This document shows positions 1 to 4,789 of a stretch of 64,000 bases of DNA, in pieces. Every line of letters begins with the position of its first letter. The stretch's first letter is position 1. The notes beneath the pieces are model-generated. The model was not told where the DNA came from, searched no databases, and saw only the letters and a list, made by a program, of their open reading frames with translations. The stretch comes from Flavobacterium haoranii. Lineage in GTDB: Bacteria; Bacteroidota; Bacteroidia; Flavobacteriales; Flavobacteriaceae. A program made the translations under genes and the position numbers. The stretch covers positions 1,674,001 to 1,738,000 of the forward strand of contig NZ_CP045292.1 in the NCBI RefSeq assembly GCF_009363055.1, written 5' to 3'.

Positions 1-51
1 AAAGAAAATCGAGGAAATGAAATAAAGAAAAATCCTAGACCAAGACGATAA
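1..51 (+). CDS. 3' end of an unidentified gene (partial)
   Basis: The frame open from base 1 encodes 16 residues rich in Lys and Arg, ending in PRPRR, followed by TAA at 49-51. The next gene starts 13 bp later on the same strand, so the two are probably one operon. A basic tail upstream of a small protein in an integrated element would fit a mobilisation protein, but the fragment is too short to assign, and this is only a guess from context. Confidence 0.4.
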   Translation, partial: KENRGNEIKKNPRPRR

Positions 52-64
52 TTAAACAAAAACA

Positions 65-247
65 ATGAAAGCCGAAACAGCATACAACGTAATACAAGCA
101 CTTCCTCAACAGGAAGTCGAAAGGCTGTATAAAATGTTGGGTGTTGTTTCAGCTTCTTTTACTACAACAAAAAAAGCTAAAAAGAAACCGCTAATCTCCG
201 ATGCGGAAGCTACTGAATATCTTTTGAGGAAATTGAGGAAACTATAG
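65..247 (+). CDS. small hypothetical protein (60 aa)
   Basis: This is a short basic protein. The N-terminal half looks like a compact helical segment (MKAETAYNVIQALPQQEVER), and the C-terminal half is rich in Lys. The ATG lies 13 bp after the stop of the upstream frame. It converges on the NACHT-TOPRIM gene, whose stop is about 50 bp away. I recognise no function. Its place between a basic tail and an integrase-linked gene suggests it belongs to the accessory element. It is probably real because spacing and frame fit an operon. Confidence 0.55.
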   Translation: MKAETAYNVIQALPQQEVERLYKMLGVVSASFTTTKKAKKKPLISDAEATEYLLRKLRKL

Positions 248-297
248 TATTCATTTTTTAGTTTAATAATCTTCTTAAATAGTTTGCATTTTAGAAT

Positions 298-3213
298 TCA
301 CTCAATATAATTAATTGTTTTATTACATAATTGATCAAGCTCTTTAAAAAGTTCAACGAAATTAACGAATCTCTCCTTCTTTCCAAGCCTTAGAATTTTA
401 TCATTAAAATCTGATTTGGAACCTGTAATTTCAAATACACCTGGAATTGAAGTTTGTGTTACCATATTGTTTTCTTGGAGAATTTCTATAGGAAAGTAAT
501 GTTCTATCTCGAAAAATTTGAATGCTTGTTTTTCTTGATGATATGCTTTGTATGTCTCTTGTTCGGGGATAGGTAACATTATAGCATAAATATTCATATC
601 TTTTACTTTTTTTACTATCCCATTTGTAGTTTCAAAAATTTTAGGTAAACCATTGAATTCTTGGTATCCTTTTGCATCGTTGTCAAATATTCCAATAACT
701 GTTTTACTTTTGTCAAAATCAGTTTCTAAGTCTTCAGCTAATCTCATTAAAAATGCTGAAAGTTGTTGTGCGCCTCCAGCTTTTGCACTTAAGATATTTT
801 CAATTGCTGTTATGCTCCAATATGGCTCATCATTCATGGTTAAAACTCTAAAAGCATGGCTAATTATGGAAGCATCAGTCTTACCTTCAGTGAATAATTC
901 TACTTGTTTTATTGGATTTAACCTTTCAAACGTTGTATGTCTTAAATTTTCTGATGGATTTTCAAGTAAAAATCTAATACTTCTTGTATATTTTTTCTTC
1001 TTTGATGCTAATTTGTAATCTTTACGCATTTTAGCTTCATTACCATACTCAAGAATATCAATCGCTTCATCAAAAAGATATACAAATAAAGGAATTGTTA
1101 GAAGCTTTTCTTCTTCAAATAATATATCCAGTTTGGTTGTGTCTTTAACCCTTCCTGTATTCAATGTAGCAGCTATGCAGAAAAGTTGATATAGTCTTGT
1201 AAGTTTATCTTTTTCAAATTGAGTCCCTTGGAGGTTTTTCATTTCTGAATGCAATTCATCAAACGCTAATTGTAAAGGATCTCTAAGAGTTATCGAATTG
1301 TAATGTATAAAAAACCAAGCAAGATTCGCGACAGCAATATCTGTATCCTTTATTCCTCGGAAAAAAGGAAACTTCTGTTCTGCTAATTGTTTAACTCCAG
1401 AGTCAGCTCTTATTAATAAGTCTAATGCAGCTAGTACTGCATTTTTACGATTATCAGAATGTGTCATCCATAGTGATTGAAGTATATATCCCAAACCAGA
1501 AACAGCTAATAAATGCTCATGAAGCAACTTGTACTTTTTGACTCTCACTACGAGTGAATCTAAGAAATTTTTCATGTTCTTGGTGCGTCCAGTATAGAAA
1601 ATCGCTGTATTTTGCCAGTTATATTCACAGAATTTTTCAATTATTTCCTTTTCAAGGCCCTGTCTATCTTCATCGTCAAAAATCTCCCTTGACGCATAAT
1701 ACTCTAAAAAATGATCGTGTTGATATGTAACGAACTGTTGTTCATCTACATACAGAACACCAGTTCCATCGGTCATTGATTTGATCAAATCAGGAATTAC
1801 ATGTTCCTCAATCGTTATAGACTGTCCTTTAAAATAGTCAACAACATACTTTATAAAATCATCAAGTTTTAATCTAGTTCTGTTTGTAGACTGTATTATT
1901 TTTAGAGCATACATTTGTAAGATTTTTTCTTTGACGTCAAGTCGAAGAAATTCTAAATTTGAATTAACATTTAATCTACCAAGGAGAAATGTATTGAAGT
2001 TATCATAAACGTCTGTTATAGTTGCTGGAACCTCGTATCCATTTTCTTCAAACAAAACCGATACAAGTGATATCGTTAATGGGGTAGAGGGAATACGTTC
2101 CAGTATTTTATTGTCTTGTAAACTATTCCATAATTCTTCAGATTTCTTTAAATCACGTTTAAAAAAGGTATCTAAATATTGTTGAACTTGATGGAGATCA
2201 AAATTTGATAACATAGTGTGGATATGTTCACATATTTCGCACCCTTTTGTTAAATTCTCATAATTCCTAGTTGCAATTACAAAACTTAAATTTTCTTTCT
2301 CAACAATGTTATTTAATTCGCTGAATATTCCCTTCTGTTTTTCAGTTTCAAACTCGTCAATAGAATCAATAAGAACCAGAACTCTGTAATCATCAAATAC
2401 TTTATCAAGACCTTCTTTACCTACTAGATTTTCAATTTCTCTTTCTATGGCTTTATCAATTGAATATTCTGTGTTCGCAATCAGACTGGTTTTGATTCTA
2501 ATTGGTAAAATTTTATCTATTGAATTCTGATTGTGTTCAATAGCTAATTTTCCAATTTCTTTTAAAAGAGTGGTTTTTCCAGTTCCAGCATCTCCAGAGA
2601 GAAAATAATTATTACTGTCTAAATATTGGTCTTTTTTAAACTTAATCCTAAGAAGTCTACCTGTTTTATCATCATCCTTGAATCTATAAATTTTTGGTTC
2701 TATAAAGATGTTTAATAACTCTTCAAATTTTTTATCTAGTTTTAATGCTTTTTGTAGTTCGCCATTTGATTCAAGATTATTGATGAAAGCATCTTCAAAG
2801 CTTTTTAAAAAAACATCATTATGTCCCCAATATTCTGGTAGATGTTTGTCAACAAGTTGTACTAAAAATGATTCTTCCCAAAAAATAATTTTATCTGTAT
2901 TTAATTCCTCTTTTAGCCAATTTTTAAAATAATTAGAAATTTTCTTTTCATTGGAACTAACGACAATAATTTCATCATTCGGTATAATGTTTTCTTTTAA
3001 TTGATCTAAAATTAATTGCAATTTCCCTCCAAGTTCACTTAGAGTGCAAAGAATTTTAATATCACGATGACCAAGTGCTGAGTCTTCTGTGGCTGAAAGC
3101 ATGTATTGATTTATGGACTTTATTTCATTTAGGCCAAGTTTTTCTGCTATTTTAGTTACAAGTGTTACTAAACTTTGAATGTCTGGGATGTTTTTTACTG
3201 TTTTTTTTCTCAT
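298..3213 (-). CDS. NACHT-type STAND NTPase with C-terminal TOPRIM domain, putative anti-phage protein
   Basis: The protein has 971 aa. Residues 1-130 resemble the end of the Mrr-like N-terminal regions found in large STAND proteins (VDKHLPEYW at 121-129), but I see no intact nuclease motif. The NTPase has Walker A GDAGTGKTT (207-215), Walker B VLVLIDSIDEF (278-288) and a sensor-like FVIATRN (311-317). YQHDHFLEYYASRE (497-510) matches the conserved signature after NACHT domains. A long helical region follows. At about 770-910 there is a TOPRIM-like core: FTEGKTD (E776), GIFDNDAKG (D844, D846) and FEIEHYFP, as in OLD-family nucleases. NACHT proteins with nuclease domains are known bacterial immune sensors; TOPRIM as the C-terminal effector is my inference. 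It stands alone on its strand next to an integrase. Confidence 0.8.
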   Translation of the reverse strand: MRKKTVKNIPDIQSLVTLVTKIAEKLGLNEIKSINQYMLSATEDSALGHRDIKILCTLSELGGKLQLILDQLKENIIPNDEIIVVSSNEKKISNYFKNWLKEELNTDKIIFWEESFLVQLVDKHLPEYWGHNDVFLKSFEDAFINNLESNGELQKALKLDKKFEELLNIFIEPKIYRFKDDDKTGRLLRIKFKKDQYLDSNNYFLSGDAGTGKTTLLKEIGKLAIEHNQNSIDKILPIRIKTSLIANTEYSIDKAIEREIENLVGKEGLDKVFDDYRVLVLIDSIDEFETEKQKGIFSELNNIVEKENLSFVIATRNYENLTKGCEICEHIHTMLSNFDLHQVQQYLDTFFKRDLKKSEELWNSLQDNKILERIPSTPLTISLVSVLFEENGYEVPATITDVYDNFNTFLLGRLNVNSNLEFLRLDVKEKILQMYALKIIQSTNRTRLKLDDFIKYVVDYFKGQSITIEEHVIPDLIKSMTDGTGVLYVDEQQFVTYQHDHFLEYYASREIFDDEDRQGLEKEIIEKFCEYNWQNTAIFYTGRTKNMKNFLDSLVVRVKKYKLLHEHLLAVSGLGYILQSLWMTHSDNRKNAVLAALDLLIRADSGVKQLAEQKFPFFRGIKDTDIAVANLAWFFIHYNSITLRDPLQLAFDELHSEMKNLQGTQFEKDKLTRLYQLFCIAATLNTGRVKDTTKLDILFEEEKLLTIPLFVYLFDEAIDILEYGNEAKMRKDYKLASKKKKYTRSIRFLLENPSENLRHTTFERLNPIKQVELFTEGKTDASIISHAFRVLTMNDEPYWSITAIENILSAKAGGAQQLSAFLMRLAEDLETDFDKSKTVIGIFDNDAKGYQEFNGLPKIFETTNGIVKKVKDMNIYAIMLPIPEQETYKAYHQEKQAFKFFEIEHYFPIEILQENNMVTQTSIPGVFEITGSKSDFNDKILRLGKKERFVNFVELFKELDQLCNKTINYIE

Positions 3214-3354
3214 GATTTTTTATTAATCAATTCGTTTTTTTAAAACTTAAGTATTATAAACTAAAATAGTAATGGGTTTATTATATAAAAAAATGATAAT
3301 CAGCTAATTTAAAAACCTTCTGCGGATTAGCAAATACTTTTTAAAATTATTTTC

Positions 3355-4647
3355 TTACTCTAGTAAATTAGAATAATCCTCGGGTAATTCTGCATCAATA
3401 TCACGTAAATATTGTTCTAGAGCTGTCATAGTATTATGTCCTGTAATATGAAGTAGTTTACTCTTTGTTTCAAATGGAGAAAGTGTTTTTCTCATTTCGC
3501 GGTAAATTTTAGTAATGTAGGTATGACGAAATGAATAAATACCGTAATTACTATCCAAAATAAAATAATCTTTATCGCCCTCTTTTGCTTTTTGCGTGAA
3601 GAAATCTTTTACTTCTTTAAAACGTTTAGTAAAGTAATCTCTTCTGTTGTCATCTGTTGCTTCCCAAGTGTCAGGTTTTCCGCTTGGAGTAAAAATGTAA
3701 TTATCAATTTGGTAATCTGATAAAAATGAAAGTTCATCCGCTAGTATAGAAGGGATAATCTTTTCTTTAACGAGTTTATTTTTTGCTTTTACAGTTAGTT
3801 TGTTTTCTCTAAGATTAATATCTTCAACTTTTAAGCGACACACCTCTATTGGACGTAAGAAATTGTACGACACAAATTTTATAAAGAGTAAAAGATTTGG
3901 ATCATTTTCTTTTAAATATTCTAATATGCGTTCCAGTTTAAAATCCGAATATGATTTGTTTCGTTTAGGTGGTGCTTTTATTACTTTTATTTTCGATATA
4001 AAATTAGAAGGAATTATTCCATTATCCTCAAACACTTGAAACAATGTACTAATATCGGTTCTAGTGTTATTTCGATTTCGTGGAGAAGATGAAAGTAACA
4101 CTTCGTTAAGATAATCAAGTACAATGGTTTTATCTACAGATGTAATGAATCTATAACTAAAACCTCTACTTTCTAAATATTTTTCAAATCGTTTAATTCT
4201 AGATTTAAAACGAATATACGAGTTTTCAGTAATGGAGCTTTTTTTAATGTTTAAACCAAATTCAAAAGCGTCTTTAACCGACATCGTTTCTTTTTGCGAT
4301 TCACTATTTTCGTAAGGATTATAACCTTCTTTTAAAATTCTGGAAAGATTTCGGCGATAGGTTTCTAAAATCTCTAATCGTTCCCCTTTGGTTTTATAAT
4401 AGTTAACGCCACCTTTAATAAAAGGTTGTTTTTCTAAAAGTCCAGTTTTGGGATTGCGAAAAGAAAAATACACAAACCATTCTTTTTTAAGGGCATTTTC
4501 TTGCTCCTCTTTGGTGTATTTGCTCCAAGTAGCCACATTTAGTCCACCTGTATAGATCTTTGGTTCGGAATATTTTCGTTTTGGCTTCAACTGAAAATCG
4601 TTTACGTTTTGGTTTACGATTTCTAAAATACGGAGAATTTTGGACAT
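3355..4647 (-). CDS. tyrosine recombinase (phage/ICE-type integrase)
   Basis: The protein is 430 aa from ATG 4647. The frame stays open to an earlier ATG at 4674, but that lies inside the tRNA terminator hairpin, so I prefer 4647. An N-terminal arm-binding region (Lys/Arg rich) is followed by a SAM-like core-binding region and a C-terminal catalytic domain. Catalytic positions: Arg in FLRPIEVCRL, the box YSFRHT (Tyr replaces the first His of HxxR, with the Arg kept), GHNTMTALEQY with the nucleophile Tyr. It sits immediately downstream of the tRNA-fMet 3' end, the usual place for an integrase that inserts into a tRNA. It most likely mobilises the element that continues left of the window. The second att copy is not visible. 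Confidence 0.9.
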   Translation of the reverse strand: MSKILRILEIVNQNVNDFQLKPKRKYSEPKIYTGGLNVATWSKYTKEEQENALKKEWFVYFSFRNPKTGLLEKQPFIKGGVNYYKTKGERLEILETYRRNLSRILKEGYNPYENSESQKETMSVKDAFEFGLNIKKSSITENSYIRFKSRIKRFEKYLESRGFSYRFITSVDKTIVLDYLNEVLLSSSPRNRNNTRTDISTLFQVFEDNGIIPSNFISKIKVIKAPPKRNKSYSDFKLERILEYLKENDPNLLLFIKFVSYNFLRPIEVCRLKVEDINLRENKLTVKAKNKLVKEKIIPSILADELSFLSDYQIDNYIFTPSGKPDTWEATDDNRRDYFTKRFKEVKDFFTQKAKEGDKDYFILDSNYGIYSFRHTYITKIYREMRKTLSPFETKSKLLHITGHNTMTALEQYLRDIDAELPEDYSNLLE

Positions 4648-4681
4648 AAAAAAACGGCTTTGAAAAGTATTCAAAACCGTT
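4648..4681 (-). terminator. rho-independent terminator after tRNA-fMet
   Basis: On the minus strand an 11-pair hairpin (arms 4671-4681 and 4653-4663, one G-U wobble) is followed by seven T at 4654-4648. It ends the tRNA transcript. The integrase ATG (4647-4645) begins directly after the T run. Confidence 0.8.
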
Positions 4682-4716
4682 AATTTACTGACCTTGAGGG
4701 TCTTTTTTCTACTTAG

Positions 4717-4789
<73 letters not shown>

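Follow-up and report, generated by a model that had tools for sequence, protein, structure and literature searches.

We analysed a stretch of 64,000 nucleotides from Flavobacterium haoranii (assembly GCF_009363055.1, contig NZ_CP045292.1, positions 1,674,001 to 1,738,000; hereafter, the window), near the start of which a gene encodes a NACHT nucleoside triphosphatase (NTPase) with a C-terminal domain of the TOPRIM type. This NACHT-TOPRIM protein, a bacterial relative of human innate immune receptors, probably protects the cell from viruses; its layout is unusual for its class. We propose that it would act as an antiviral NACHT (STAND) switch with a C-terminal TOPRIM nuclease effector in a single polypeptide, and we give this reading a probability of about 0.7. 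In published work, NACHT proteins are described as having an N-terminal effector, a central NACHT domain and a C-terminal sensor (PMC12169576), and STAND/NLR switches as activating the N-terminal effector (PMC12169576, PMC13092281). In the NACHT-TOPRIM protein, in contrast, what remains at the N-terminus is an eroded nuclease, and the C-terminal TOPRIM domain, whose predicted active site is intact, is the likely effector; an earlier note on this DNA had suggested such a reversed order, and the suggestion held. Judging by the sequences, the clade appears to have lost an N-terminal DNA-cutting domain and gained a different nucleic-acid-cutting domain at the C-terminal end. What is new here is that this exchange appears once on the trees that we made, and that several relatives lie inside type I restriction operons.

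The NACHT switch and the TOPRIM-type active site

The open reading frame (ORF) reported in the earlier note is real and lies on the minus strand, which that note had not stated. A degenerate pseudogene was rejected, as the frame is open and seven full-length relatives at 82–90% identity and one at 81% were found. Among about 5.8 billion proteins searched, 190 homologues were found. The best 120 of the 190 were listed, and the 107 of these with at least 900 amino acids were aligned (group A), the 13 shorter ones being dropped. The NACHT core described earlier is present, with GDAGTGKTT from residue 207 and VLVLIDSIDEF from residue 278; Pfam NACHT matches at E = 2.6e-9 (37.6 bits, cut-off 26.7), and Pfam, motif reading and alignment all indicate an NTPase with Walker A and Walker B motifs. 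Residues G207, G210, G212, K213, D283, D286 and R316 are invariant in all 107 proteins. The densest stretch of near-invariant columns is at residues 361–560, and nSTAND_NTPase4 matched near residues 448–516 in all seven homologues scanned, below the family cut-off. The PADLOC candidate PDC-S60 matches the core of the three relatives scanned with E from 1e-15 to 2e-17; the match spans about 400 of the 1027 model positions and includes neither the N-terminal nor the C-terminal domain, and the window protein has no such match.

In the C-terminal domain, every one of the 107 proteins has E776, G777, D780, D844, D846, G849, E904 and K933; three of these residues (E776, D844 and D846) are at the positions claimed before. 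The assignment of this domain to TOPRIM is based on the conservation of the motifs, homology to ATPase-TOPRIM proteins and a profile match to retron Ec67. Residues 770–960 match a 628-residue ATPase protein (L008) with E = 3.2e-8 and 35% identity, and the family profile finds further C-terminal matches (L040, L042–L047 and L063). Domains of the AAA_15/AAA_21 type are present in L008, L043, L045 and L040. L047 has a HEPN_Toprim_N domain and weak Toprim matches, and in L042 the DxD part is present and the EGxxD motif is absent. When ten NACHT proteins were aligned with L008, L043, L045 and L040, the positions of E776, G777, D780, D844, D846, K869, E904 and K933 were invariant; thus, the active-site residues E776, D780, D844, D846, E904 and K933 are common to all four aligned AAA-ATPase-TOPRIM proteins. 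L008, L043 and L045 are single proteins in which an ATPase best matching PADLOC PtuA is followed by the TOPRIM-type domain at the C-terminus; L044 and L046, which were outside the PADLOC scan, are similar.

The profile of these fourteen proteins, compared with PDB sequences at E up to 10, found only retron Ec67/Eco2, as two distinct chain sequences. Counted along the profile alignment, E776, D780, D844, D846 and E904 fall on Ec67 E374, D378, D460, D462 and E515, which are metal ligands whose changes to alanine abolish defence (PMC12405507). K933 falls on Ec67 K546 by the same count. PMC12405507 gives the catalytic lysine of Ec67 as K562, a number that the lysine of Bp OLD shares (PMC6755086); therefore, the equivalence of K933 with the Ec67 lysine is less sure. 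Two residues ahead of the glutamate, where the metal B site has a threonine or serine, the window protein has glutamate 902, and the position is not conserved, so that Ec67 serine 513 has no conserved counterpart in the NACHT-TOPRIM proteins. The conserved glutamate and DxD motif of the OLD/Ec67-type TOPRIM are present (E776, D844 and D846), as are the metal B acids and the lysine (D780, E904 and K933), aligned with the Ec67 acids and with a lysine. We conclude that the C-terminus is the predicted site of a two-metal active centre of the TOPRIM type. Of the OLD-like TOPRIM core that had been proposed, the intact TOPRIM-type active site was retained; the comparison with OLD is refined, in that the only solved TOPRIM protein found by sequence is retron Ec67/Eco2 and not OLD itself. 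The N-terminal ABC-type ATPase that precedes TOPRIM in the OLD family is absent, the NTPase here being NACHT.

The N-terminal domain and the probable exchange of effectors

Relatives without TOPRIM were found in three genomes (L005–L007 in G179, G027 and G349), and the cut-out N-termini of L006 and L005 are narrowly above the Pfam Mrr_cat cut-off (22.2 and 21.4 bits against 21). With the G027 protein as query, 289 proteins were found; the best 120 of them were listed, and the 112 with at least 740 amino acids were used as group B. When a mixed alignment of 20 proteins served as query, 100 proteins were obtained. They contain another group, and its 85 members with at least 740 amino acids were used as group C; fragments and distant matches (P0327–P0339) were left out. 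Groups B and C (L005–L007, P0121–P0326) are large, their proteins have about 790 amino acids, and those with a name are mostly called 'NACHT domain-containing' or hypothetical. Their layout is the described N-terminal Mrr layout of NACHT/STAND defence proteins; N-terminal Mrr_cat-STAND proteins are reported from P4 hotspots (PMC9122126). Among the distant matches, P0333 and P0335 are metallophosphoesterase proteins whose nSTAND_NTPase4 domain is distantly related to the NACHT-TOPRIM core, and their layout resembles DS-8 as described in PMC13092281.

Both the aspartate and the lysine of Mrr are kept in 112 of 112 group B proteins, and G-K-D with the lysine in 85 of 85 group C proteins. The TOPRIM motif pattern is present in 107 of 107 proteins of group A, which includes the window protein, and in none of the 112 and 85 of groups B and C. 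In group A the catalytic lysine is present at its column in 0 and the aspartate at its own column in 26 of the 107 proteins, so that no member carries the intact pair typical of the Mrr-NACHT groups, and 99 to 107 of them have a gap where the T-H-E-x-G segment would be. The letters GKD occur somewhere in the first 130 residues of 6 of the 107; W129 and D133 are invariant. Using hhalign, we found that the N-terminal domain of group A matches that of group B with a probability of 98.8 over 175 columns and that of group C with 99.3 over 179 columns. Given this homology to the Mrr domains of the two groups and the loss of catalytic residues, we consider the domain to be an eroded Mrr domain, which agrees with the nuclease remnant suspected before. 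An active Mrr domain in the NACHT-TOPRIM protein was rejected because of the lost lysine, and the intact N-terminal effector of NACHT/STAND defence proteins is missing here for the same reason.

To order these events, we used quick trees of residues 195–745, one of 78 rows and one of 57 rows with 6 outgroup rows. On both trees, a single branch separates the TOPRIM group from all other rows (support of 99 and 100 in the Shimodaira–Hasegawa-like approximate likelihood ratio test). In the tree with the outgroup, group C is sister to the TOPRIM group (98) and group B lies outside. By eye, GKD with an x-x-K-K strand after it is seen in the outgroup rows L030 and P0332 too. The support for the outgroup placement is weak (47), and long outgroup branches meet. 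Because the TOPRIM group is one clade with C as its sister and B outside, and because two outgroup rows carry GKD, the Mrr-first layout is likely to be ancestral, with one exchange of effectors. The sampling was by similarity (the best 120 of 190 and the best 120 of 289), and intermediates could therefore be missed.

Neighbours of the gene and possible functions

A scan of genome contigs with the single protein found no loci, but a scan with the alignment (version A1 of 99 rows, 8 of the 107 being left out) found at least 26. Nineteen of them (L011–L029), all from Bacteroidota, encode proteins of 955–1002 amino acids with the TOPRIM motif pattern. Flanks of up to 10 kb were examined at 18 loci (L018, on a 4-kb contig, was left out; L021 and L022 have less than 1 kb on one side). 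HsdM is encoded in the flanks of seven loci (L011, L012, L013, L014, L025, L027 and L028), each time within 5 kb, and in all of these except L027 the NACHT-TOPRIM gene has hsdS on one side and hsdR on the other, all on the same strand. The gaps to hsdS are 14, 21, 3 and 13 bases in L012, L013, L014 and L025; at L011 and L028 the gene is set apart by other genes or by longer gaps. The hsdR of L014 is 6.8 kb away and is a weak match (26%). Five HsdM representatives of the seven loci are 23–38% identical, except for L025 and L028 at 60%; thus, the link to restriction-modification was made or kept with different systems. PADLOC, run on 148 of the 171 neighbour ORFs, found type I methylase and specificity subunits in both sets among the 25 most-hit families listed. 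Three further loci have restriction- or defence-like neighbours (HKD and Snf2 in L017, a type I restriction endonuclease in L021 and an AlbA_2-type protein in L022). Among the families compared, none besides type I restriction-modification recurs beside the gene. No HsdM match was found at the three loci of groups B and C that were examined. Large ORFs beside or near the gene at L013:6875-8713 and L019:7535-9607 are by eye possible ATPases, with no PADLOC match at E up to 1e-8.

The background density of HsdM_N was taken by profile from the window's family alone, where 100 genomes have 100 matches, or one per 3.26 Mb; the loci, in contrast, were called by BLAST and come in part from other families of the phylum. 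With 20 kb per locus, the binomial probability of at least seven of 18 loci with HsdM is 9.9e-12. For seven of 22 loci it is 5.2e-11, and at five times the background density it is 2.9e-6. The 22 loci are the 18, the window's own, L071, L072 and L073, the last four being without a counted type I HsdM; L074 is the same locus as L027 and was not used, and a match of L073 to HsdM (26% identity over 224 residues) was not counted. The link of the homologues to mobile or defence loci, which the earlier note had made a test of its proposal, is seen in the island that carries the window copy and in the type I systems beside seven of the 18 relatives.

In the NACHT-TOPRIM clade, the switch and the helical region are kept, and the only recognised intact catalytic site besides the NTPase is at the C-terminal end. 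We suggest that the NACHT and helical region would sense infection or the loss of restriction, and that NTP-dependent oligomerization would bring the TOPRIM domains together or release them. The TOPRIM domains would then cut nucleic acid and halt the growth of the infected cell, while the role left to the dead Mrr domain is probably assembly or restraint. TOPRIM nucleases differ in their targets: that of Ec67 is reported to be an RNase, Gabija cuts DNA and PARIS cuts tRNA (PMC12405507). Owing to the closeness to retron Ec67, RNA or tRNA is slightly likelier than DNA as the substrate. As the likely effector is at the other end and the old one has decayed, the same switch should be able to drive a C-terminal effector, and the family would allow a direct test of how NACHT oligomers activate their cargo.

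Several known systems share parts of this design. Like bNACHT25, AVAST and the Mrr-STAND proteins of P4 hotspots, the protein is a large single polypeptide with a NACHT switch in a mobile context. Retron Ec67/Eco2 has a similar TOPRIM type and also a C-terminal effector behind another module, but its partner module is a reverse transcriptase with multicopy single-stranded DNA (msDNA) and not NACHT. In OLD, Gabija GajA and PARIS AriA/AriB an ATP-driven switch is likewise coupled to a TOPRIM nuclease, but this switch is an ABC-type ATPase. There is some precedent for enzymes at the C-terminus of STAND proteins: GT4 domains, which often occupy that end of STAND modules, have been predicted to be effectors (PMC8195603). 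We met no NACHT-TOPRIM protein in the titles, abstract openings and passages of the literature searched; most subscription papers lay outside its reach, so that this is no proof of absence.

Some results weigh against the proposed switch with a TOPRIM effector or fall short of supporting it. The window protein had weak PADLOC matches, the best being HEC-01B (E = 1.5e-4), and no TOPRIM family was named for its C-terminal domain by PADLOC, nor by single-sequence Pfam scans of this domain and of two cut-out homologue domains; Pfam Toprim matched in one of seven homologues scanned, below the cut-off (E = 0.04). The profile match to retron Ec67 is weak, with E = 0.0021 for the whole sequence and 0.027 for the best single domain, and the NACHT proteins alone gave 0.036 and 0.78 for the domain. 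The hhalign comparison with phage P2 OLD was not significant (probability of 2%, aligned on an EGKT stretch). The remaining eight of the 18 loci had no recognised defence neighbour in what was scanned. There is no restriction operon in the island of the window copy.

The position of the relatives suggests another role, in which the protein would guard type I restriction: in the manner of PrrC, it would be silenced by the host restriction enzyme or monitor it, and fire when a phage disables restriction. The gene order in six loci, the short gaps to hsdS in four of them and the divergent kinds of HsdM agree with this, and there are precedents, as PrrC is a latent nuclease embedded in a type I operon (PMC3874165) and PARIS senses the anti-restriction protein Ocr and has a TOPRIM effector (PMC12839542). 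However, 11 of the 18 loci have no HsdM in the flanks examined (one of them, L021, has the type I restriction endonuclease), the island of the window has none, the two HsdM_N matches of its genome are more than 0.9 Mb away, and operon membership may reflect shared regulation only. The likeness to EcoprrI/PrrC concerns the relatives and not the window copy, and PrrC is an anticodon nuclease of another family. We regard this role as possible but rather doubtful. More tentative still is the full scenario in which an NLR lineage swapped its N-terminal DNase for a retron-like C-terminal TOPRIM RNase and became a tripwire in type I operons that fires, like PrrC or PARIS, when phages block restriction. 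If it is true, the receptor end of a bacterial NLR was turned into its weapon end, and the family is a candidate link between NLR-like sensors and the failure of type I restriction.

It is unlikely that the protein mainly serves the mobile island by excluding competing plasmids or elements. Its gene is second from the integrase end of the island, and Wadjet, which bears TOPRIM, targets plasmid DNA (PMC12405507), but island boundaries were mapped for the window copy only and the type I restriction neighbours of the relatives point to general defence. In STAND proteins the sensor usually sits at the C-terminus (PMC12169576), and the TOPRIM activity is only predicted, so the domain might be a nucleic-acid-binding sensor with a partner that does the killing; this seems quite improbable, since invariant catalytic residues in 107 of 107 proteins are unexpected for a domain that only binds, no neighbour besides type I restriction-modification recurs among the families compared, and no other intact effector was recognised in the protein. 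It is very improbable that the N-terminal domain has stayed active as a nuclease by way of a shifted active site: the retained Mrr homology, the invariant W129 and D133 and the few GKD stretches would fit, but the missing lysine, the aspartate kept in a minority and the gap at T-H-E-x-G speak against it. Among these readings we prefer the antiviral switch with the C-terminal TOPRIM effector.

The island, the features of the window and the distribution of the family

The tRNA-integrase junction in the earlier note turned out to be one end of a 52.2-kb interval (G000:C1:1626554-1678758, its end being window 1–4758) bounded by exact 49-bp repeats, which include the 3' end of the tRNA-Met gene. 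At this end, a NikA/MobC protein and the relaxase are followed by the NACHT-TOPRIM gene and then by the integrase. The integrase ORF matches Phage_integrase (E = 1.5e-4, 22.0 bits, cut-off 27.1) and an XerA-like family (E = 5.7e-6, 26.1 bits, cut-off 220). The interval is a probable mobilizable island at tRNA-Met with the NACHT-TOPRIM gene as cargo. Much of the rest of the island carries, by eye, genes of denitrification, anaerobic metabolism, anaerobic ribonucleotide reductase, NAD synthesis and export; the domains confirmed are COX1-type, nos_propeller, relaxase and MobC. A nitrous-oxide-reductase-like region (L067, G000:C1:1648427-1650453) appears as two adjacent ORFs, of which only the second has the nos_propeller match. 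Between the relaxase end and the NACHT-TOPRIM gene, and convergent with the latter, an ORF of 60 amino acids (window 65–247, plus strand) has no family above cut-off. Promoter-like sites were at chance level (22 found, 21.9 expected); four terminator-like sites were found against 1.3 expected.

Table 1. Features of the NACHT-TOPRIM gene and of the adjacent island end, in window positions
Feature	Position	Strand	Basis
NACHT-TOPRIM protein	298..3213	-	ORF with ATG start, 971 amino acids; 190 homologues
Residues 1–190, degenerate Mrr-like (restriction-endonuclease-type) domain, catalytic lysine lost	2644..3213	-	hhalign to Mrr domains of groups B/C; catalytic columns lost
Residues 195–360, NACHT NTPase core	2134..2631	-	Pfam NACHT, 37.6 bits, cut-off 26.7
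Walker A motif GDAGTGKTT, residues 207–215	2569..2595	-	G207, G210, G212, K213 invariant
Residues 361–755, region common to groups B/C, probable winged-helix/helical and possible sensor part	949..2133	-	near-invariant columns; nSTAND_NTPase4 matches
Residues 770–971, TOPRIM-type domain, probable nuclease effector	301..906	-	invariant E776/D780/D844/D846/E904/K933; profile match to retron Ec67
Codon E776, predicted metal A ligand	886..888	-	invariance; Ec67 alignment
Codon D780, predicted metal B ligand	874..876	-	invariance; Ec67 alignment
Codons D844–D846, DxD motif	676..684	-	invariance; Ec67 alignment
Codon E904, predicted metal B ligand	502..504	-	invariance; Ec67 alignment
Codon K933, predicted catalytic lysine	415..417	-	invariance; Ec67 alignment
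Tyrosine-recombinase-like integrase, 439 amino acids	3355..4674	-	Pfam/XerA-like, below curated cut-offs
tRNA-Met (CAT), probable integration site	4716..4789	-	tRNA gene call
49-bp repeat, probable attachment site	4710..4758	.	exact second copy 52,156 bp away, genome 1626554-1626602
3' end of the island's relaxase gene (start outside window)	1..51	+	Pfam Relaxase, E = 2.1e-35

The NACHT-TOPRIM family is uncommon. In the host genome (2.87 Mb, one contig) the gene itself is the sole match at E up to 0.01. Of 397 genomes searched in the window's family, four have a long match that reaches TOPRIM (its own included, one of the four interrupted) and three have a long match without TOPRIM; among 395 genomes of the phylum, a TOPRIM-bearing match was found in its own and one more, and one match was without TOPRIM. 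A class-wide search with a mixed profile (395 genomes, E up to 1e-20, two candidates scored per genome) gave no new full-length member. In IMG/VR viral contigs, 600 candidate stretches gave none that was confirmed, no homologue was found in phage records, and plasmids gave only distant NACHT proteins in five records with at most 51% of the query covered. At L071 (genome G256:C1, about 1125953-1127190) a homologue is broken after about codon 45 by a 1.2-kb insert, the ORFs of which look by eye like an IS3-type transposase.

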